From the NCBI RefSeq assembly GCF_038396675.1, contig NC_088926.1, positions 5,366,001-5,430,000 on the forward strand: a DNA stretch of 64,000 bases. The letters are read 5' to 3'. Source of the DNA: Hydra vulgaris. Taxonomy: Eukaryota; Cnidaria; Hydrozoa; Anthoathecata; Hydridae. Shown here in pieces: positions 3,082 to 64,000 of the stretch. Position 1 is the first letter of the stretch, and each line of letters starts with the position of its first letter. Made by a program: the position numbers and the translations under genes. A model generated the notes under the pieces. That model had not been told where the DNA came from and did not search any database. It was given only the letters and a program-made list of their open reading frames with translations.

Positions 3082-5080
3082 TTCGCCCATCAAACAAACT
3101 GTTGAAATGCTATTCCTGCTAACGAAAAGCTTGTCATTGCTCAAAATTGAAAAATGACAAAGCCCTTAATCAGCAGTATAGAAAACTTTGGGATGTGTCT
3201 GCGTTAAAACACTTCATTAAAATTTTAAATTCTTGACAAACAAAAGTAAACTTCTCTGCGCAAGACTAGATTATTTCTGAAAACAATATGTGTGTGTGTG
3301 TGTATGTAGTTAACAACTTTGATTGACTTTTTATTAAAGAAATTATAAATAGAAGCTAAATTCAAAATTAAAATTGAAAAAGTTATATTGTAATTATATC
3401 AAAATTATATTTTAATTATAGAGAATTTAATATTAAAAGTGCAAAATTTTACAATATCTAAAAAAAATTTCTTTTTTTTTTAATTTCTCAACCAAAAACT
3501 TAATCAACTTTTAAAGAATTTTGAATTGTACTTATTAATCTAATTAACTTATTATTATATACTTTTATTATATTATATTATTATTATTTTTATTATTATT
3601 ATTACTATTATTATTATTATTATATACTTCCAACAACTTAACTTATAAGTATTCATAATTTATTAAAGTAGTTACCATTATTGAAGTGTATAAATAATCA
3701 CAACAGTATGCAAAAAAGTAGAAGTATTCACACAAAAAGTTAAAGAACAAAAATAATAATAATAACAAGCTAAAGTTAAATGAAATAATAAATTAATAAA
3801 TATTTAAATGGATTGTTATCGTATAAAATATTTATCTGCTGAATACAAAATTTCATTACAAAATTCAGCACCCTTTAACTATTAGTCAAAAAAACTACTG
3901 AACAGATTTTTTTAATTTCTTTTTACACAATTAAACTGACTAAATTATTTATCTAAACCCATCCCATCAACCCATCATTCAGTTTTTATTTAAGGGCCCA
4001 TTTTGTGGTCCCTTAGATAAAAATTGAATATTTTTGTGAGTACTTGACATAATCTGTATTTTAAGTTGCTTTTTTTTAAACTGCTTCCTCCTTTTTCTTA
4101 AAATCTTCATCTGAATCTAATTTCTTGCCTAAATTGACCAATTTCAAGACTTCTTTGCTCAGGACAATTTGGAGTACTTTCTTCCTTAGATATAGTGTTG
4201 TAACCATGAATTATGTAAGATGAATTCTTATCTTACATAATGCATGGTGCGATTTTTAAACACAAAAGCAGCTTTATTTCAGTCTAAATATACTTAAATT
4301 TGTTGTTGTAATTAGTAAAAAATGATTTTTGCAATAGGTTTTATTGTCTTCAATAATACACAAACTTTCTCAGTTTAAAAGTTTATACATTTTTTTTAAC
4401 AAAAAATTGCTTTAATTTTTCCAGCAATGTATAGCTTTGGAGTTTTCTTTTTATGGTATGCTTTGGTATTGAATCATGATATTCTTGATATTTATGTCTT
4501 TTATCAAGCTTATCAAAGCTTGGCCGCACTTAAATTTTCTGCACTTTAGTTATATCTCTCTGCAAATGACATGAATTTTAGTTTGATGGAGCAAATGATT
4601 TTTTTCTGCTTGCTTTTCTTTCAATAGAATTAAGTTTTTTTATATCAATACAAAATAAATCTAACTGAAGATTGAGCAACACCAGTAATTTTGAAATTTT
4701 TTCTCTATTTAATGTTTATTTACTTATTTAACCTGATAACAATGATAACCAATACTCAACATTAATACAACTAAACATTAACACATTAACTTCCTTGCGC
4801 AAAAAAATTTTATAATCTTATATTTATTTTTAATTAATAAACAATTTAAGTGTGCTGAATTTTATTGTGTTCTAATTGAAATATTGTATATACTTCAATT
4901 ATCATAATAATATTTACCTTATATTGCAAACATATGATCATTTGTTTTTACAACTTAACAATCATATATTGCTTTAACAGCAACTTTATTATTTTTGCTG
5001 TAAAACTTGCTTTTATAAACTTTATTCAAAGTTTTAAAAATATTAGAAAAATAGACAAATATATTTAAAAAAATCAAAAT
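3082..5080. other. AT-rich intergenic stretch, SHQ1 to Asterix
   Basis: No exon, RNA gene or transposon was recognised. It holds a TG tract (3290-3306), an ATT/TTA microsatellite (3540-3626) and runs of A and T. The only other point is a short open stretch on the minus strand (4073-4175) that looks protein-like but has no matching family or splice context. Confidence 0.5.
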
Positions 5081-5085
5081 GAATT

Positions 5086-5091
5086 TTTATT
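5086..5091 (-). promoter_or_regulatory. AATAAA poly(A) signal of Asterix
   Basis: AATAAA on the minus strand, 57 bases after the Asterix stop codon, in the expected place for cleavage and polyadenylation. Confidence 0.65.
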
Positions 5092-5148
5092 CAATTTAAA
5101 AGTATACATAAAATTGATTTGACATTAAATAATTTGATTTATCATTTG

Positions 5149-5457
5149 CTACCAACTAACTGCCATCGGCTGTGGGTTTTGTAAATATGACATCACAATT
5201 GCAGAAACAGATAATAAAAAACTGCTAAACATTTGCCTAGCATCTTCTGAAGCTCTTGAGTTTGCAAAGCTAATAAACGAACAATACACAGCTGCCCATG
5301 CAGCCCATTTCAGTCTCATCATTAAACCACACATACTAAAAACCATTCCCAATAGATTGAGATAGTCAGCTATTGGGTCATCACCAGGTTTATTAGAGGA
5401 AGGCTTGTAACGATAAATACGATTTGGACGTCTTGGATCGCTTGACAGATTGCTCAT
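5149..5457 (-). CDS. WDR83OS: Asterix / WDR83OS, PAT complex subunit
   Basis: Small ER membrane protein. With CCDC47 it forms the PAT complex, which shields newly inserted transmembrane helices of multipass proteins. The 102-residue frame is complete in one exon. Landmarks: [14 protein letters not shown] at the N-terminus; [20 protein letters not shown] leading into hydrophobic segments; [18 protein letters not shown]; and a C-terminal MSYLQNPQP block. The family is about 106 residues and matches along its whole length. I start at the ATG of MSNLSSDP (5455-5457). An in-frame ATG 9 codons upstream (5484) is also open but adds residues the family lacks. The rc TTAAGTATAG just before the start could be a trans- or cis-splice acceptor. 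A (TA)n tract lies 30 bp upstream. Confidence 0.95.
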
Positions 5458-5485
5458 TGTAGTTTTATCTATACTTAAATACATA

Positions 5486-5488
<3 letters not shown>

Positions 5489-5578
<90 letters not shown>
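5489..5578. repeat. (TA)n microsatellite
   Basis: About 45 uninterrupted TA units immediately upstream of the Asterix 5' end. Confidence 0.95.
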
Positions 5579-5579
<1 letters not shown>

Positions 5580-5584
<5 letters not shown>

Positions 5585-7010
5585 ATATGGTAAATCCATT
5601 AAAGATATCTATTAAAATCAGGTATCTGCAATGGGATTAGTTCTTATAATAACTAAGGATTTAAGTTGATAAAATGTTGTAAGACAATAATAGGGGTAAA
5701 AAATGTTTTATTATCTCTAATAAACAATTTTTAGCTTTCACAACCAAGATTTTAAAATAGAAAATTGTCTCAAATTTTTATATTTTAGACAAAATATTAT
5801 TCCAATATAATTGCCATGTTTGAATCTAAATTTAAATTTAAAAATAGTCCAATGAATGATAAAATATGATAAAGCTTTTTGATTTTATCCTTAGCTTTTT
5901 ATAGGTTACATTTAAAAGAGATATACAAAAATATATAATTATATTATTTATAAATAAAGATAGTTCTTCAGATAGATAAATATCTTGATTCTAATAACAA
6001 TTACTGTAAATTTTTTGAACAAATGCGACACTTATTGTTTACAACTTTCGTCGGCCTCCAACATTTTACGCGCAATTTACGGAAGCTTTACCGATTATAC
6101 CAATGATCACTATAATAATTATCATTAAGATCAGCGGTTCTAATGAGATTCCCTTACAAAGAAATCTCATTTGAACGGTTCAGTTGGAAATCACAAAAGC
6201 GTCTTAGTGACGTCTATAATTTAAGTCATGCAATTTTGGACCCCCTTCCCCCTCTCTCGTCAGAACATCGTAACTCTTAAGTAACAAGCCCCGACGAGAC
6301 GTGACAAAATCACCCATTCCCCTAGAGCGTTGCGTAATTTATAGGTGAGCTCTTATTACAAACAGTGTCTGATAGTGGGTTTTGTGACTAACACCCTCAC
6401 TCAAGTTTTCTAATTTATGAAATTTTAAATGTGACTGACTTCATAGTCGTAGTTTCTTTCATGTACTTTAATAAATATTCTTACAATATTTATATATTAA
6501 TAGAAATATTGTAAGAATATTTTTTTAAGTACATTAATAAGCTTTAGTAATTATTAATTTTTTTTTTTTAAATTATTAAATTGATCAATGAAAAAAAGAT
6601 AATCCATACATCATTGGAGAGGTTATAATATTGGCTGCTAAAAAGTAAAAATAAAAAAATGATCTGAAAACTACTATTACTACTATTTTTGTGCATTAAT
6701 AGTAAAAAACTCTTTACAAAAATACTAAATTCAACTTTGATTTGAAATTAAAAAAGTATTCCTATTTGTTTTTTATATATTTTTTGATATTTTCTTAGTC
6801 GGTAGTGTTTACTAGCTACCCTGTGAAGTGTGGCTTCGATCTATGATGCTCTTTAGTTAGCTAAATTGTTTTTGCGGGTCTTGGTATGTGGCCAACTAAC
6901 CGGAGGAGGATAAACCACAATACCTTAAAAAAGTTGCGCATTTCTAAGAAATAGATGTAAAAACAAAATGCGAGCAGGAAATGAATTTACGACTTTCATT
7001 TAGGAAAAAA
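5580..7010. other. intergenic stretch upstream of Asterix, with MITE-like remnant
   Basis: No exon recognised. 6205-6356 is GC-richer and ends in GCGTAATTTATAGGTGAGCT then CTTA. That resembles the right end of the MITE at 40982-41404 (ACGTAATGTATAGGCGGCCC). It also has a C-rich block (6240-6257). I read it as a decayed copy of that MITE family, without a definable left end. Confidence 0.4.
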
Positions 7011-7094
7011 AGTTTACCTTTGACCACTTTAAGAAAAAAAAAGTACGACATAATACAACGTATGAAAATTGGCTCTGCCTATAAAATTTCAAAA

Positions 7095-7139
7095 TATTGA
7101 AAAAAAAATTAAGCACTTTAAAATCATGTTTGATCACCG
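7095..7139 (+). pseudogene. Tc1-like transposase, N-terminal piece before the insertion
   Basis: The frame KHFKIMFDH runs to the insertion point and, after removing the 3584-bp element plus one CACCG copy, continues without a break into RNKVSQKEAGQKFKCSKALI at 10726 onwards. This is the helix-turn-helix part of a Tc1/mariner-type transposase. See the entry at 10724-11450. Confidence 0.55.
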
Positions 7140-7622
7140 CACAGTGGTTTGAAATAATCAAAAAGTGCCATTAATTCAAGATTTGTGAAAATCCGATATA
7201 AAAAGTTCTGATTATGCAAGATTGTTGCAAATTAGTCATATTTTCATGTTCTGAAAGAATTAATTTTTTTAAACCACTTGGCCCTTACCCGCAGATGCTC
7301 AAAGTTGCCATTTTTTAAAGAACATTTATTTAGTGAAAAAGCAATAATTTCGAACTTTTATTTTATTTCTTAAACCGCACCTGTGATGTATGTTTCTGTA
7401 AAAATCTGAATACGTAGGGATTGATATGAACCGCATTCTGTATATTTCTGTAAAAATCTGAATACGTATGGATAAACTTCGACCCTTCTTCTTATAATCC
7501 AATATAGGTTGTGATGCCACCCGGACCCGCCCAAGAATAACTATTTTCAATTTAAAAATGTTTCTGCTTAAAATGAATTTTTTTTTTTTTTAACATAAAA
7601 CATGATAGTCATTTTCATTCAG
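7140..7622. repeat. left terminal inverted repeat
   Basis: Pairs with 10138-10723. Conserved blocks include the terminal CACAGTGGTTTGAAATAATC, CGCAGATGCTCAAAGTTGCC, a repeated TCTGTAAAAATCTGAATACG, and a GC-rich CCCGGACCCGCCCAA. Confidence 0.88.
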
Positions 7623-8008
7623 TGCTAAAAATGATTCTCTAATTTTATTTCTCATATATTCCTTAACATACATAAAATAAAATTATTAGATTAAAAATAT
7701 AATCAAAAAAATTGATTTTTTTTAAAAAGTACAAAGAGATTTTCCCTAAGTATGGGGACTTGTGGAATAAGAAAAAAACATGCAAAATAGAAGCACTGAT
7801 ATCATTTAATAATAATGGTTTCGAATGATTTTAATTAAAAGTAAATTTCGTAGTTATAGCTGAGTATTTATTCGCTATCGGATAAACTGCTATCGGCTCC
7901 AATATCAACGCAATCTAATTGTCGATAAACATGAATTAGTTCAGGTAAAACCTCTTAATCGACATCCTTACTTCTTGTGGAATTTTCAATCAATAAAAGT
8001 GGCAATAC

Positions 8009-9906
8009 CTATTCTGGTAGTACTGATTTACATACAGACTTCAAACGACTTTTCAAAATAATGCTGTAAATATAAGAATCTGATTTTTCTAAACCTCGAC
8101 AAAAAAAATCAGTTAAGTTGTTAATTCTTAAGGTTTTTTTTGCATGATCCATACGATCTTTTCTATGGCATTTGCAAAGACTTTCTCCAGCATTTTCGGC
8201 AAAAGTTCCAACTGGCAAAATTAATTCAACCATAATTTGAGCTCCGTTAGCTAACACTTTATGAACACAAGTAGGAAAATTATACCATGATTATATTTCT
8301 TATTGATAATTAAAACTGTTTTTAGACAATTTGATTGGATCAATTGAAATTTGACAAGACAAACATATTAATATTGTTTTTAAATGGACAATAAGATTTA
8401 TATCTATATCCAAAATTTTTGATAACAATATTGAATCAGAAATAGCTTGCCGTGCAGTATTGTCATTATTAGATGAACCAGTGCCACCTGGACGGGGTTT
8501 GTGCACTTGTAAATTTAATTTTTTCCAAAATGATTTTTGTATAAGACTTTTTCGAACTTTTACATAACCTTTATTTATTTTTCGTTTTGCCTGCCATTGC
8601 TTAATATCTAATTTGTACGACAAATGAAGGAGAGTTTCAATGAAACGGATCCAACAATGAAGTGGTCTTATTCCAAAGAGTAAAAATGCTTTCTCAGTGT
8701 TAAATAATTTATTTGTGTAGTTTCCAATGTGACTCATTTCCGTAGGTGTTGCTTTACAAAGCGGCACAATTGTTATGACCGTGTTTCAGTGATTTCCGCT
8801 TGACTATTAAAAATACAGAGTTTTTGGTATTAAGAACTTTTCCATTTGGTAGTCATATTGTGATATCAGAAAGTTCATTTATTTGTCGTTCAACAAAAAG
8901 ATTTGCTTCGAAAATAAGTTCTTTACTTTCTTTTACATACTTTAAGATCATTGGTCTGAAAAATCATTTTATTAGGAGTTGGATTTGCCCAAAACACATC
9001 CCAGTCATATGTTTGAGGTCTTAAAGGTACAATGGTAACAGAAAAAAGCGAATCATCTGATAAACTTTCAAGTAAATCATCGAACTTTTGATTGAATTGG
9101 GAAAAATTACTGGCTTCATCAAATCCCCAATTTACAACAAAAATCAACTCAACCATGTCCTTTTCTTTATTAGTAATTTTAGATACAATTTGCGCCTCTT
9201 GTGATTCTACTATTCTTTGAACAGTATGCATTAGAAGATTTCGTAATGGCACATTTGCCTCCTTGTCAGAGATGTGCATATTTTTCGGTCTACATTTTTT
9301 TTAGATTCCAGAATATCGCTGTAAAGCGGATAAATATTTGCACCTCTCTCTTTGCTTTCTAATCTTATCGCCATGTACTAAGATTTAGTAAAATCATAAT
9401 TTAATAGAAAAGCAAGTCCCTCTTCTGGAGACATTTTCTTTATTTCTTTGTCAATGTTTTTATTGATATTATACGCCAATTGTTAATCTTGTAGAATGCA
9501 CATGATTTTTTTCTAAGTTCTTATTACCTATTTGTTTGGCTGTGTATCTTGCTGTTTTGAGTATATACTTTGTATCATATCAACTTTTTCAGACAGATTA
9601 GAATTTGTTATTCTTTTAGCTCGTTTTCCTTTGTCTTTAAAAGGCAATGTTTGCCGCCCTTTCTTTAATTCTGGCGTTTCTAATACGTTTGAGAGTTTCC
9701 AGATAACTTCTTTAAATTCAAAATTAAATTCATGTTCTAACCAGGAAGCTAACTTTCTATGAAATTTATACTTGGAGTATTGAACATCCTTTATTTTGTT
9801 TGTACGTGGCTTGTAATGTTAATAACTTTTTTTCTAATTCTTTATCTTGAGCACCTTCAATTTTCATAACATTCTTCTTCTCCGAAAATTGCAAACATTC
9901 CGACAT
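8009..9906 (-). pseudogene. decayed transposon protein with HKPRPGGTGSSNNDNTAR motif
   Basis: Starts at an ATG at 9904-9906 (MSECLQFSEKK) and ends at a TAG at 8009. Several frames must be joined. Pieces in order: a Lys-rich N-terminus; KLASWLEHEFNFEFKEVIWK (about 9745); ELIFVVNWGFDEASNFSQF (about 9150); IVPLRPQTYDWDVFWANPTP; GIRPLHCWIRFIETLLHLSY (about 8660); HKPRPGGTGSSNNDNTAR (about 8480); then VHKVLANGAQIMVELILPVG (about 8230). These blocks recur in unnamed proteins of cnidarians and insects that I know only as hypothetical, multi-copy and transposon-like. The frame is broken at least three times, so this copy is dead. I assume it is the transposase because it is the only gene between the repeats. 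No DDE triad could be assigned. Confidence 0.65.
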
Positions 9907-10137
9907 TTTAATATCACAAAAGAAATAAAATCTTTGTTCTTTAACTTCATTAAAGACAATTTGTACTTTATTGTTTATTTACACAACTTTAAATTAACAA
10001 AAAGATTTTTTGTAAATTCTTTCATTTTGCAAAAGCTTTTGAGGTTATATTAATTTAAAGGAAGTATTTTAAGGTTATATTAATAGTAAGTCTTTAAGTT
10101 ACCACAAAGATATCTTTTTATGACAATATAATGCAAT

Positions 10138-10723
10138 TTGATTGAAAATGACAGTCGTGTTTTACGTAAAAAAAAAAAATCAATTTAAGTAGAAACATTT
10201 TTAAATTGAAAATAGTTTTCTTTGGGCGGGTCCGGGCGGCATCAAAACCTATATTGGCTTAAAAGAAGAAGAGTCGAAGTTTATCCATACGTATTCAGAT
10301 TTTTACAGAAACATACAGAATTTAATAAAAGTCACATTCAAACATGCTATTATTTCCAAGTCTAAAAAGTTATCTTTCTCTGCATTTTTACAGCATGAAA
10401 TGTAATTTTATAAATAATTTAACAATAAACTTTGAAAGCCTGTTTAATATTCTTCCGATTGATATAATATATGGAGGTTCACAGGTGTGGTTTAAGAAAT
10501 AAAATAAAAGTTTGAAATTATTGCTTTTTCACTAAATAATTGTTCTTTAAAAAATGGCAACTTTGAGCATCTGCGGGGAAGAGCCAAGTGGTCTAAAAAA
10601 TAAGTTCTTTCAGAACATGAAAATATGACTAATTCGCAACAATCTTGCATAATCAGAACTTTTTTATCGGATTTTCACAAATCTTGAATTAATGGCACTT
10701 TTTGATTATTTCAAACCACTGTG
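10138..10723. repeat. right terminal inverted repeat
   Basis: Inverted partner of 7140-7622. It holds GGGCGGGTCCGGGCGGCATC near its inner end and ends CAAACCACTGTG at 10723, followed by the CACCG target duplication. Confidence 0.88.
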
Positions 10724-11450
10724 CACCGTAATAAGGTTTCCCAAAAGGAAGCTGGTCAAAAATTTAAATGTAGCAAAGCACTGATTAGTTACTCGTCATA
10801 AAAAAAGAGCAGCATCCGTTTCTATAATACGAAAAAGATAACGATGCAAAATAATGACCAGAAAGAAAGAATTTGCAAAGGATGTGATTGTTTGTAGCAA
10901 AATTTTGTATGGAAATTGTGCATCATTGACGATGAACATTCTTTTACTTTGGCTCGCAGCGCAACCAAGTGCAATCATATTTTTTTACTCAACCAATATT
11001 GAACAAACTCCTGCGCGGTTAAATATAGAAAAACTGCAATTGCGTCTAGTTGTGCTTTTCTGATAAAGGGGTGTTAAAACCGCAATTTATTCTCTGTGAC
11101 CTTGTAGTTAACCAAAATCTTTTCTCGGAACATTGCATCAAAAGCGATTAGTGTCTTTTATTAAAGAATATCACAGAGATGACTAAAACTTATTTTGTCC
11201 TAACCTCGTTTCATTGCATTATGTTAAAACAGTGACGTCATTCTTTAAAAATAATTCCATAAATTATGTGACCAAAGTTGATAACCCGCCAAACATACCA
11301 TAATGTTGTCCAATTTTTTTGAGTATTTTGAAAAAAATCGTCTATGCAAAAAATAGGCAGGCAAGATATCTGAAACAACTTCAAATTTGGATAAATTCCT
11401 GCCACATAAAAAGTTGACAAGAACCTCTTAAAAAATGTAGTCAAGTCAAT
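10724..11450 (+). pseudogene. Tc1-like transposase remnant (C-terminal bulk)
   Basis: Continues the frame broken at 7139. Reads RNKVSQKEAGQKFKCSKALI at once (HTH). Later LHQKRLVSFIKEYHRDD and FCPNLVSLHYVKTVTSFF fall in the region before and around the second catalytic Asp. VDNPPNIP is followed by ILKKIVYAKNRQARYLKQLQ, covering the region of the third acidic residue. That last residue is lost: the block reads P-stop-CCPIF. Many stops and frame changes. The element at 7140-10723 inserted into it, so this is the older of the two. Confidence 0.65.
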
Positions 11451-13380
11451 TCGTTTTCAAATTCAAAAATCAGAAATAATTAACTGGTAGAAGAAGTTTA
11501 AAGGTAATACTAATAAAATACTAAATACTCTATACAAATACATTTTTGTTAAACTGGTAGCTTAAAATTTTAAAAAGTAATAGCCACTTTACATTTTTTT
11601 AAATTTCACTGATTTCTATTGAACACTCGTTCTTCAGGTCCAAACAATAATTTATTGAATTGCACAATGTCACAGAACAGTAGATTCTGTAGACCAATTA
11701 TGCTGGAGTATATAAAAGAAAAAAAAAGAGGATTTATTAAAAGTTATTGAGGTAAAATTATTGAGGAAAAAAAAATTCTTAGTTATTCATGTTTAATTAT
11801 TCAACATTAATTATTCATGTTAAATTACTCAGAAAAACTTTAGAAATTGATCAGGAAATTAATACTAGGTTGCATAGCATTCAATTGCAATAAATCAGCA
11901 CATGTACTAGCACATGGTGGTAAAATTATCAATAATTCAGAAGCAGCTGAATCTCGACATTAAACGCATGTAGTATGAACATGGATGTAGTATGAACATA
12001 GATGACCTATATTTAAATGTGGACAACGTTAACATAAATCTAGAATTAGATGATGACGAATGTATGAGGATAGATGTAGCCAAATAAGGTTCTAAACTGT
12101 GTATAATGTATAACTTTATAGTCTTTTGTTTACGATGTAAGTTTCTTAAATATATATTAAAAACTGCAATGATTAGGCTCCAGTTATTAAACATGGAAGC
12201 AAAAATACCCCGAAAATTCCTTGCACCCCAAACGTGAGGGGAATAAACTATTAAATAATTTTTGTTTTATCAATATTTACTTGTCCAACTTACATACATA
12301 CTTGGCCCAATTTTTTTTTCTTTTTTCTAAAACATATATTTACGCTCAATGATGTTAGAAAACAATATAAAACTACACTTTTCAACTTGAAAATAATTTT
12401 AAATCCATAAAAAAATAATTCTCTTAGAAATTATTTGAGTTTTTTTTTTTTAAATTTGAAAAAAGTATTGCAAATACGTTAATTTGACGTATTATTTTTT
12501 ACAAAGTAAGCATGCAAAAATAATCACTTAACAAATTATTAATTAAAAACTAAGCTCTGTTACATAATCAAATATTGCCTCCTTTTTATATTACTAAAAA
12601 TGAAAAAAATGTATAATAATATTACAAAATGGTTTTAACCCAGCGGGCACATGTACTTTCATTGTACGTAGAATGTGTATCCAAAGCACGTCCGTCCGCT
12701 CGTGAACTTAAAATGAACCTTTAAAATTAGTTTTAAATAAATCGAACCCAAATAGCAACTAAACTAAAAATATTTATATAAGCTTAGCCGTACACATAAT
12801 AAAATTCGTCGTTATCATCTACTATAATTGTAGCTTTATACGATTTTAATTTTTATAACTTAATTCTTAAATTAATCTGCGGAAGACAAACAAACGTGTT
12901 TTTCCAAGTGATGAGACCATTGCAAATGAAACGACAATAGTTAGACGAAAACTTTGCAAATCCATGATAGATCAAGAATGTCTTTGTCCATGATAAATAA
13001 ATGGAAAACAAAGTTTGAAGATGGATTGACCAAGTTTAGACTCTAGAGAGGATTCAATTCCGAAGAAAATGATCTAGATCTAAACAAATTATTGTCGTTT
13101 GTATACCAAGATATATACCAAAAAAATACTGCTGATACAGAATGAAATGAGCTTGGCTTTTCTTGATGCTACTACTAAACAATAGATATGCGCTGTCTCT
13201 CTTTTTCATTGTATTGAAAACTAACATTGATTACCATATTGGGAACGATGGCTGTCTAAAGGATAATGGTGTAGCATGGTAAAAAATGACAATTATTTAG
13301 TTGCATTTAATTGTGTATACAAAAGGTTGTTCGTAAATAATAAAAACCAAAATTTTTATACTCTTATTTGAGTGGGCGTG
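11451..13380. other. AT-rich stretch without recognised genes
   Basis: No exon or RNA gene seen. 11930-12110 (plus) holds a short acidic frame ending NINLELDDDECMRIDVAK-stop that may be the tail of a lost transposon protein. 12642-12720 begins CCAGCGGGCACATGTACTTT and contains TCATTGTACGTA. It matches, inverted, 24290-24345, so both are fragments of one dispersed repeat family. Confidence 0.4.
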
Positions 13381-14330: not shown

Positions 14331-14998
14331 TCTTGTCATTTATATCTTATTTTATCACTTATATTTATCTTATTTACCTTACTATATCACTTATATTTAT
14401 ACTATAGTAGTATAGTTATATTATAAATCTTATTTATATTTTAAACTTATATACTTATAGTTATACTTTACTCTTTAATCTTAGATTATTTAGACTTATT
14501 ATTTAAATATAAAGATTATTTATACAGTATCATAATGCTTATATAGTATTTATATTATATCTATTATATTATTTATCATTATCTGATTCTTATAAGTTAC
14601 TATATTTTATACCACAATTATTTAATACATTATTTCTGTTTGAATATATAAGTTTCAAAAGGGTTACATACTTTACTTTTAAAATATTGTCACGTTCTCA
14701 CTTTTCATCAAAATCTCACACACAGTATTGCATAGGGTTCACTAGTATCTGTAATTAAAATATAGACTAAAATTTGATACCAATAATAAAATAAAACTTG
14801 TATAAAATAAAAGTATAAAAGTCATAAATAAAAATACAAAATTCTGTAAATTAAAATATAACTCTTAAATTAAAAATTAAAATATAAAACTCAAAATTAA
14901 AAATAGAAATAAAAACCTAATAAAAATACAAATATAAATTTAGTTCAACCAAGTACCCTTTTCTCATCTTCATTATCCTAAATGCTGAAGTGAATAAT

Positions 14999-17900
14999 AT
15001 GGTTGTTAAATCTCCTTGTGGTGTTTGTTATAAAACCGTAACATGCAATCAAAAAGCTATACAGTGTGACTCTTGCAATAAGTGGATCCACATTAGGTGT
15101 AATAATGTTGATAAAAAATTCTACAACTCTTTGATGACTGAAACTGGCTATTGGTACTGTTTTAATTGCTTAAATAACACTCTACCATACTCTTCCCTTA
15201 CAGATAAGGATTTTAAGGTCACTATAAATGGTGCAAACACTTCTACTCATAATTTATTTTATGACACTTCATCTAACCTAAATAATCTTTTTCAAAATAA
15301 ACTTGACAATGATAATATTAATTGTAAATACTATGATACAACAGAGTATAACAAAGCTATTAGTATTGATTCAAAAACCTATTTACATGTAAATATATCA
15401 TCCCTGACATATTACCTTGATGATCTAAAACTTCTGCTTTCCCTTATGAATAATAAACCTAATATCATTGCTATATCTGAAACTCGCTTAAATCGTAACA
15501 TAACACTTAGAACTGATATTGCTTTAAATGGCTATGTCTTTGAACATACTGATTCACATTCTAATAAAGGAGGAACTATTATATACATAAAATCTGAATT
15601 AAATTATAACTTAAGATCTGACCTCATAATCCAGAACAACAAAGAACTAGAATCAACCTTTATTGAAATTTTACTGCCATCAGAAAAAAATATTATTGTA
15701 GGTTGCATTTATTGCCACCCATGTATGAGCACTAGTGAGTTTAATATCACTTATATACAAACCTTACTTGACAAGTTATCACTAGAGAATAAAAATATAG
15801 TTCTTTTAGGAGACTTTAACATTAATCTTTTAAAATATGACTCCTGCAATGATGTTTCTAACTTTCTAGATCTTATGTGCTCTTTCTCCCTCTTCCCATT
15901 AATTACTCAACCAACCAGAATTACCCCAAAATCAAAGACTCTCATAGATAATATATTTGTAAACTTTCACACTCCAAATACTAAATCAGGCAACCTAACA
16001 GTATGTCTTGCTGACCATCTTGTTCAGTTCATATCCTTCCCATCCAAGAACTTAAAACAGTCTCATCCCAAATTATATCGTAGATGTTTTAAAAATTTTG
16101 ATGAAAAAAGTTTTTTAAAAGACCTTAAAGAAACTGATTGGCTTTCAATAAACCATTTAAACTACTGTGTTAATAACTCTACTTCAAAGTTGTTGGATGC
16201 ACTTAAAAGATTACTTGATAATCACACCCCTTTTAAAATGTCAACCAAAAAAGCTAATAAATCTTTATCAAAGCCATGGATTACTAAAGGAATCATTATG
16301 TCAATACAAATTAAAAATAAGTTGCACAAGAAGTTTATAAAATGTAAAAATGAGAATTTAAAGCTACAATACTTTCAAAAATTCAAATATTACAGAAATC
16401 AAATTAGTAACCTACTACGATACTCAAAAAAATCATATTATTCAACCTACTTTAATGAAAACTTAAATAACCTTAAAAATACCTGGAAAGGAATAAGGAG
16501 TATTATTTATATTAAATCAAAGATCAACAATAATATAGATAGTTTAAATATCAATAATAAAACTATAACTAACAAGAAAATAATTGCAAACACTTTTAAT
16601 GATTACTTCTCTTCAATTGCAGATAAACTTTCTAAAGAAATTATACCTCCTAGATTTCACTTCAGCCACTATTTGAAAAATCAAAATCCTGATACTTTTT
16701 TTATATCTCCAGTTACTCCTCAAGAAGTAAATGACTATATTTCCCTCTTGAATCCAAAAAAAAGCACCGGTCCCAATAGCATTCCTTCAAAAATAATGAC
16801 CTTAGCATCTCAAGAATTGAGCTTCCCCTTGAGTATTATAATAAATCAATCTTTTCAATCAGGGATATTCCCTGACTTATTTAAAGTTGCAGAAGTTGTT
16901 CCAATTTTTAAAAGCGGCTGTAAACAAGATCCATGTAACTATCGGCCTATATCCTTACTCTCAAATATAGGTAAACTAATTGAAAAATTTATGTATAACA
17001 GGCTGCTCAATTTTTTAAATCTATCAGATAGCTTATATAGTCTGCAATTTGGATTCCGAAAGAAACACTCTACTAACCAAGCACTCATAGATATAACTGA
17101 AACCATACGTGAGGCTTTGGATCAAAAGCAATTTGCTGGTGGAGTATTTGTTGACCTGCAAAAAGCTTTTGATACTGTCAACCATGAAATTTTATTATCA
17201 AAACTGTATCATTATGGTGTAAGGGGAATTGCACTGAACTGGTTTAAGTCATATCTAAACCATCGTCCACAAAGTGTTACTATTGGTAATATCTCATCCA
17301 CTACTAAGTTTACATCTATAGGTGTTCCTCAGGGTTCAACTTTGGGTCCGCTTCTTTTCCTTATCTACATTAATGATTTAAACACTTGTATTAAATACTC
17401 AAAGGTGTATCATTTTGCTGATGACACTAACCTTCTGATTGTAGATAAGTCTTTAAAAAAGCTAAATAAGTACCTAAATTATGACCTGGCATCACTGGTT
17501 CAATGGCTGCGATCAAACAAAATATCTTTGAATGTCAAAAAAACTGAATTAGTTCTATTTAAACCTCAAGGCAAAAAAATTACCAAAAAACTTAATTTTA
17601 GAATTAGTGGTCAAAAACTAAATATTGTAGATAAAATAAAATATCTGGGCATATTATTAGATGAAAATCTTTTGTTCATTCAACAAATTAAGTCCATATC
17701 AAACAAATTAAGTCGAGCAAATGGAATGCTTACCAAAATAAGGCATTTTGTGAATTACGAAACCCTTGTGAATATTTGGCATGCTATTTTTAACTCCCAC
17801 CTACGCTATGGTTGTCAGATATGGGGACAAAGTCCATCCATTTATAAAAAAAACCTTATAAATCTCCAGAATAAATCTTTAAGAATAATTCACTTTCAAC

Positions 17901-18214
17901 CTAACAGTTTTAGTTCTGACATACTGTATAATCTTTCTAAAATTTTAAAGCTTGACGAACTTATCTACTTATCAAACTGTGTTCTTGTATGGGACATTGT
18001 CCACCATAATACGCTTAGCTGCTTCACTAGCTATTTTAAATTCACAAATGATGTTCATAGTTATAAACTTAGGTCTGTATCTTATTGTAGTCTTTCTATG
18101 CCTTTAAAACAAACACACAAGTATGGCATAAAGTCAATCAAGTATCAATCAATTCTATGTTGGAACTCTCTTCCTGTTGAAACTAAAAAAAATATTCTCC
18201 AAAATATCAAATAG
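14999..18214 (+). CDS. CR1-like retrotransposon polyprotein: PHD, endonuclease, reverse transcriptase
   Basis: 1,071 codons with no stop or frameshift. I start at the ATG of MVVKSPCGVC; the frame is open a little upstream through a GTG at 14990. Order: a PHD-type C4HC3 finger (C7, C10, C23, C26, H31, C34 and a WYCFNC pair), which may bind chromatin. Then an AP-endonuclease-like domain, with ISETRLNRN, LLGDFNINLL (D272) and LADHL (D339-H340) as catalytic landmarks. Then reverse transcriptase with NYRPISLLSNIGKLIEK, FVDLQKAFDTV (motif A Asp719), GVPQGSTLGPLLFLIYINDL and FADD (806-809). A thumb and C-terminal tail follow. No separate ORF1 was found. All catalytic positions I can check are kept, so this copy could be recently active or protein-competent. 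Confidence 0.92.
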   Translation: MVVKSPCGVCYKTVTCNQKAIQCDSCNKWIHIRCNNVDKKFYNSLMTETGYWYCFNCLNNTLPYSSLTDKDFKVTINGANTSTHNLFYDTSSNLNNLFQNKLDNDNINCKYYDTTEYNKAISIDSKTYLHVNISSLTYYLDDLKLLLSLMNNKPNIIAISETRLNRNITLRTDIALNGYVFEHTDSHSNKGGTIIYIKSELNYNLRSDLIIQNNKELESTFIEILLPSEKNIIVGCIYCHPCMSTSEFNITYIQTLLDKLSLENKNIVLLGDFNINLLKYDSCNDVSNFLDLMCSFSLFPLITQPTRITPKSKTLIDNIFVNFHTPNTKSGNLTVCLADHLVQFISFPSKNLKQSHPKLYRRCFKNFDEKSFLKDLKETDWLSINHLNYCVNNSTSKLLDALKRLLDNHTPFKMSTKKANKSLSKPWITKGIIMSIQIKNKLHKKFIKCKNENLKLQYFQKFKYYRNQISNLLRYSKKSYYSTYFNENLNNLKNTWKGIRSIIYIKSKINNNIDSLNINNKTITNKKIIANTFNDYFSSIADKLSKEIIPPRFHFSHYLKNQNPDTFFISPVTPQEVNDYISLLNPKKSTGPNSIPSKIMTLASQELSFPLSIIINQSFQSGIFPDLFKVAEVVPIFKSGCKQDPCNYRPISLLSNIGKLIEKFMYNRLLNFLNLSDSLYSLQFGFRKKHSTNQALIDITETIREALDQKQFAGGVFVDLQKAFDTVNHEILLSKLYHYGVRGIALNWFKSYLNHRPQSVTIGNISSTTKFTSIGVPQGSTLGPLLFLIYINDLNTCIKYSKVYHFADDTNLLIVDKSLKKLNKYLNYDLASLVQWLRSNKISLNVKKTELVLFKPQGKKITKKLNFRISGQKLNIVDKIKYLGILLDENLLFIQQIKSISNKLSRANGMLTKIRHFVNYETLVNIWHAIFNSHLRYGCQIWGQSPSIYKKNLINLQNKSLRIIHFQPNSFSSDILYNLSKILKLDELIYLSNCVLVWDIVHHNTLSCFTSYFKFTNDVHSYKLRSVSYCSLSMPLKQTHKYGIKSIKYQSILCWNSLPVETKKNILQNIK

Positions 18215-44449: not shown

Positions 44450-45349
44450 TTAGTGAGAGGATCTAATTGAAAGAAAAGTTTGGGTTAAGCTGAAAAGTTC
44501 TCAATGGTTTAATGATATTTTTAATCAAATGGAGGAATGTGAATTTAAAGAACATTTTCGAGTAAATTGTAACACATTTAATTTCCTAGTTAATGAATTG
44601 CATCCACATTTAAGCAAAACTACCACAACTATGGGTGAACCTATTTCAGTAGTAAAATATGTTAAATTTCCATAGTCAGAAGAAAATTTAAATAAATAAT
44701 AGTAGAGATTTCGAAGCTATTCTTGGTTTTCCCCAATGCGTTAAAGCTTTTGATGGATGCCATATCCCTATTTCAGACTCTAAAGATCAAGCAATTTCTT
44801 ATTATAATTATAAAGGGTGGTATTCCATTGTACTTTTTGCCGTTGTAGACTGTAGATACCGTTTCATTTATACAAGTGTTGGATCGCCTGGTAGAAATAA
44901 TGACAGCTATATTTTGCAGAATTCTTCTTTGAAAACAATTTTAGAATCAAATCTTTTTGATAAATGTTAAAAAGAGCTGGGCGGTTGTTCCACTATGTTT
45001 GATAGGTGATTCAGCATTTCCTTTAACGCGTCATTTGTTAAAACCGTATCCTGAATATTTGGAGCTTAGTGAAGTTCAAAAAAACTACAATAAAATACTT
45101 TGCGGAGCTAGCAGAGTAGTTGAAAATGCTTTTGGACGCGTTAAAACTCGATTCTGTGTCATTTACAAACGTACGAAATGCGATATTAACTTTGCTACAA
45201 GAATTGTTTATGCTTGCACCACTCTTCACAACATTTGTGAATATTATAACGACATTATTATAATAGAATGGCTGATGCATAATCATGATTACAGTGTGGC
45301 TCAACCCAATACAGTTTCTACTTTTCTACGAAAGGGACAAATAAAGTAG
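44450..45349 (+). pseudogene. Harbinger DDE transposase (DDE_Tnp_4), frameshifted
   Basis: Pieces in order: RKVWVKLKSSQWFNDIFNQM, EFKEHFRVNCNTFNFLVNEL, a gap with stops at about 44674-44700, then GFPQCVKAFDGCHIPI (first Asp), YYNYKGWYSIVLFAVVDCRY, SVGSPGRNNDSYILQNSSL. A frameshift near 44965 leads into LCLIGDSAFPLTRHLLKPYP (second Asp) and VVENAFGRVKTRFCVIY (Glu), then TTLHNICEYYND near the C-terminus. The D-D-E residues are all present, but part of the N-terminal third is missing and the frame is broken twice or more. Confidence 0.75.

Positions 45350-48754: not shown

Positions 48755-64000
<15,246 letters not shown>

Follow-up and report, generated by a model that had tools for sequence, protein, structure and literature searches.

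The enzyme by which vertebrates shuffle their antibody genes has relatives among the transposons of the Transib group. Several members of this group are characterized in published work. Hztransib has a length of 3,518 bp, long terminal inverted repeats (TIRs) and a 5-bp target-site duplication (PMC1852546), and its active-site residues are numbered D126, D225 and E436 (PMC6941560). The Drosophila elements hopper and transib2 share the target motif CCANTGG and 5-bp duplications (PMC3276498), and duplications of this size are described as typical of Transibs (PMC4411706). In a figure legend of the latter paper, Hydra magnipapillata is found among the species abbreviations of a tree of the Transib superfamily. 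For Hydra AEP, CMC-Transib is listed among the putatively active elements, but not among the most expressed ones (PMC12220107). The recombination signal sequences (RSS) have the heptamer consensus CACAGTG (PMC8289069).

Here, a repeat-flanked element of Hydra vulgaris is characterized. It lies in a stretch of 64,000 nucleotides that was analysed as a whole and is referred to as the window. Judged from its sequence, the element is almost certainly a decayed autonomous cut-and-paste transposon of the Transib (RAG1-core) superfamily.

Boundaries, inverted repeats and insertion site

The element spans positions 7140-10723 of the window (3,584 bp, coordinates exact). Its features are listed in Table 1. 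A 20-bp end probe with up to three mismatches found just the two element ends in the window (0.00 expected from 100 shuffles). Of 60,300 window positions, 209 have identical 5-mers at the spacing of the element's flanks. Each TIR is composed of two blocks that pair with those of the opposite arm, with 95.5% identity over 247 columns for the outer block and 88.8% identity over 187 columns for the inner block. Between the blocks, 48 bp in the left arm and 157 bp in the right arm are unpaired, which accounts for the repeat length of 480-590 bp given in the initial annotation. In these intervening stretches the two arms are unlike each other, and the left one contains an extra copy of TTTCTGTAAAAATCTGAATACGTA.

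Both ends of the element read CACAGTG and thus begin with CAC, as expected for a Transib, and are identical to the RSS consensus heptamer. The second signature of V(D)J recombination signals, a nonamer at 12/23 spacing behind the heptamer, was not supported at the element ends: the best candidate matched 6 of 9 positions at a spacer of 11 and was equalled by 10.6% of 20,000 shuffles. Ends starting with CAC are also in line with Chapaev or another CACTA-like element, and PMC4411706 groups Chapaev with Transib in one superfamily. The 5-bp duplications and the match of the transposase to a Transib in the PDB sequences compared (see below) nevertheless leave such an assignment with next to no probability.

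Table 1 Positions of the element, its gene and the interrupted target in the window
Feature	Position	Strand	Remark
Left half of interrupted target repeat	7020..7134	+	searched stretch; other copies match from ~7083
Left target-site duplication CACCG	7135..7139	.	single copy in uninterrupted target relatives
Left terminal inverted repeat	7140..7622	+	begins CACAGTGG
Left repeat, outer block	7140-7386		
Left repeat, left-only stretch	7387-7434		
Left repeat, inner block	7435-7621		
Degraded Transib transposase gene	8009..9906	-	frameshifts and stops; first ATG at ~9906
Open piece with VHKVLANGAQ block and Glu motif	8009..8290	-	6pqn_A, E = 2.8e-5
Catalytic Glu codon (AENAGES; E436 of Hztransib)	8183..8185	-	alignment to 6pqn
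Open piece with HKPRPGGTGSSNNDNTAR block	8300..8785	-	6pqn chain 226-364, E = 1.7e-16
Open piece with first Asp motif	8923..9300	-	6pqn chain 63-155, E = 9.2e-10
First catalytic Asp codon (WGFD; D126 of Hztransib)	9118..9120	-	alignment to 6pqn
Right terminal inverted repeat	10139..10723	-	terminates in CCACTGTG
Right repeat, inner block	10139-10321		
Right repeat, right-only stretch	10322-10478		
Right repeat, outer block	10479-10723		
Right target-site duplication CACCG	10724..10728	.	
Right half of interrupted target repeat	10729..10859	+	

When the flanks are joined with one CACCG, the reading frame KHFKIMFDH/RNKVSQKEAGQ is restored within an open stretch of 36 codons. The joined flanks (251 bp) match 18 places apart from the two halves in the window, and 17 of these span the join. 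Two uninterrupted relatives were aligned (L043, L044); neither has a gap at the junction, and in L043 a frame of 67 codons continues through it. Because uninterrupted relatives extend across the join, the insertion target is a repeated coding remnant that predates the insertion. Searches of Pfam and the PDB for a name of the target gene gave nothing above cut-off. The target segment may be of Tc1/mariner type. A DNA transposon with these termini, the inverted repeats, the exact CACCG duplication and a nested insertion whose target frame is restored across the gap had all been proposed in the initial annotation, and each of them is reproduced here.

Further coding segments were observed elsewhere in the window. 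An open frame of 1,096 codons at 14924-18214 encodes reverse transcriptase, endonuclease and PHD-finger domains and looks like a non-LTR retrotransposon. A DDE_Tnp_4 transposase fragment, presumably Harbinger-type, is located at 44945-45349. The open frame at 61754-63457 contains a ubiquitin-binding (UBM) motif and is probably a host gene, which we take to be HUWE1-like.

Transposase gene

The space between the repeats contains transposase remnants only, encoded on the minus strand, with a C-terminal tail that may extend to ~7868. When the open pieces of the gene are joined with X between them, they match residues 8-445 of the 497-residue chain PDB 6pqn_A with E = 7.6e-52, and the encoded protein is thereby homologous to Transib transposases. 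The PDB names this chain only as 'DNA-mediated transposase'; we take 6pqn, 6pqr, 6pqu, 6pqx, 6pqy and 6pr5 to be Hztransib of Helicoverpa zea. For 6pqn this fits the D126/D225/E436 numbering, since the Asp of WGFD, the Asp of IDGK and the Glu are found at chain positions 109, 208 and 419, each 17 below the published number. In the window copy, the first Asp and the Glu are retained, and no Asp is aligned with the second active-site residue (D225).

The initial annotation had assigned the gene to an orphan protein with two blocks known only from unnamed proteins, and the element to no family. Both blocks, HKPRPGGTGSSNNDNTAR and VHKVLANGAQ, lie on the minus strand within the 6pqn match, where their counterparts in the chain are KQGSGTTNDGNTAR and VHKLLIHGGD. 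Neither 'orphan' nor 'unassigned' can therefore be upheld: the 6pqn match identifies a Transib transposase, the ends and the target motif are as published for Transib, as is the size of the duplication, and the window copy is an ordinary member of this known group. The RNase H-like fold suspected earlier is to be expected in a homologue of a DDE transposase of known structure.

A new superfamily of DNA transposons with an orphan transposase would agree with two observations. No Pfam model was found above its cut-off, with nothing meaningful for the five open pieces of the window copy, and the first ~160 residues are without a PDB match: the alignment of the joined query begins only at residue 164, and the piece at 9528-9818 has no PDB match. 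Such a reading is, however, exceedingly improbable in view of the highly significant match to a solved Transib transposase along most of the chain, and of the Transib-like ends, target motif and size of the duplication. Pfam was similarly uninformative for other sequences of the group. The 6pqn chain fragment matched RAG1 (PF12940) alone, with 16.7 bits at a cut-off of 25, and two stop-free Transib frames of the Hydra genome (614 and 670 codons) stayed below the cut-off of every Pfam family. That no Pfam model accepts even stop-free Transib frames would explain why the protein lacked a name. An apparently unnamed multi-copy protein family can now be named as Transib transposases. Among viral contigs, no relatives were confirmed.

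A remnant of a RAG-like (RAGL/ProtoRAG) transposon was also considered, which would share common ancestry, heptamer-like ends and 5-bp duplications with the element. The transposase, however, resembles RAG1L (6b40) in one piece only, with E = 2.1, whereas 6pqn matches the same piece with E = 2.8e-5. RAGL/ProtoRAG elements are recognized by a convergent RAG1L-RAG2L gene pair. The window copy has one gene only, and the ~250 bp spare on each side of the transposase remnant inside the repeats are too small for a RAG2-like gene, so that its gene content and spare space indicate the single gene without RAG2-like partner of a Transib. In addition, the ends CACAGTGG are unlike the protostome RAGL consensus CACTWMCAAACKTYKBB. 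A RAG-like origin is thus very unlikely.

Sister copies and target sites

A genome search with the left repeat gave 79 matches (best 40 of 285 candidates). Arms with the outer block, at least 40 in number, are found at at least 31 genome places including the window copy. The 30 other places were taken as 31 regions; L029 and L030, two pieces of one 10.5-kb place, are unpaired. L001-L008 correspond to the window or to places for which a larger region was used, and do not enter the counts. Transposase matches occur in 29 of the 31 repeat-bearing regions (all except L027 and L029), which bears out the link between gene and repeat drawn in the initial annotation. Outer and inner repeat blocks are both kept in sister copies. 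A conceivable but rather unlikely reading is a Hydra Transib lineage with two-block repeats of hundreds of bases (outer 247 bp, inner ~187 bp), in contrast to the 13-bp ends of another Transib copy of the same genome (see below); the inner block may then contain additional sites for binding or regulation.

Active-site residues were counted in tblastn rows from the 31 regions and the window. The first Asp is present in 15 of 25 rows, the second Asp motif (IDxK) in 8 of 18 and the Glu in 19 of 26; these counts leave aside L013, whose Glu lies in a different frame, and L011, whose second Asp motif is interrupted, for the respective residue. The DDE active site (D126, D225, E436) is thus found in the subfamily as a whole. 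The C-terminal 258 residues were used for a second genome search (best 147 of 4,772 candidates). The matches listed form an upper tier with ~52-99% identity, each with in-frame stops or partial cover of the query, and a second tier with ~35-44% identity to the C-terminal part of the window copy and many long stop-free frames. Among the matches listed, none from this subfamily covers the whole query without a stop. Within this set, the subfamily of the window copy looks dead, and the frames of other Transibs of the Hydra genome are complete-looking.

Target-site duplications were compared in 13 two-ended elements including the window copy; regions in which the second arm is represented by its inner part alone (L012, L018, L019, L028) do not belong to this set. 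The flanks agree at all five bases in six elements, among them the window copy, and at four bases in three, giving 9 of 13 with at least 4/5. A duplication of the size proposed from the window copy is thereby recovered in part of the other copies; the remaining four elements agree at three bases (two elements) or one base (two elements), for which our guess is decay or exchange of ends. As a control, flanks were cross-paired between elements (n = 156): 5/5 was reached in 6 pairs and 4/5 in 27 (33 with at least 4/5). Since the sites share a target motif, an agreement of 4/5 is weak evidence and the exact duplications count most.

The target motif was derived from 25 elements, after exclusion of 7 of the 31 regions plus window in which the outermost end base is unaligned (L010, L013, L022, L026, L027, L028, L030). 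The right flank was taken if both ends were usable; only the left one was taken for L032, L011 and others. Position 1 is C in 19 elements, position 2 A in 20, position 4 T in 19 and position 5 G in 19, and the third position is mixed (G 10, C 7, T 5, A 3). The GC content of these 5-bp sites is 57.6%, compared with ~28% in window positions 5001-13000. The elements hence display the CANTG-like, GC-leaning target choice of Transibs.

By analogy with Hztransib and RAG, transposase subunits would bind both CACAGTG ends, and the DDE centre would nick at the CAC border, with hairpins forming on the flanking DNA. The blunt excised element would then be joined to its target with a 5-bp stagger, leading to duplicated CANTG-like sites. 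The window copy inserted at a CACCG of the older repeated coding remnant. Its gene was later destroyed by frameshifts and stops, and the Asp motif at the second active-site position disappeared.

Comparison with known Transib elements

Other Transib families of the Hydra genome are represented by L040, L041 and L042. L042 contains a stop-free frame of 670 codons (6pqn_A, E = 4.6e-102) and has 13-bp ends CACAGTGGGCCAG with the flanks CACTG and CATTG. Its terminal repeats of 13 bp contrast with the ~480-585 bp of the window element, and long repeats are therefore not common to all Transibs of the Hydra genome. L040 and L041 belong to the same other family, with stop-free frames of 614 codons and 98.3% identity over ~3 kb. 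They have a common normal right end CCCACTGTG and the same internal-looking left start, without CACAGTG or a matching duplication. The CMC-Transib of Hydra in PMC12220107, probably from the same host, falls in the same named group as the window element, the level at which the two are compared here.

Hztransib resembles the window element in its transposase, homologous over 6pqn chain residues 8-445, in its long TIRs and 5-bp duplication, and in length (3,518 bp versus 3,584 bp). Unlike Hztransib, the window copy is broken, its flank is CACCG instead of GCTCG, and its gene apparently starts ~160 residues before the aligned part. The likeness to Drosophila hopper and transib2 consists of the 5-bp duplication and the CANTG core, the two features by which these elements were compared. 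With the CANTG core of Drosophila Transibs also present in a probable Hydra family, target choice looks conserved in the superfamily ancestral to RAG1.
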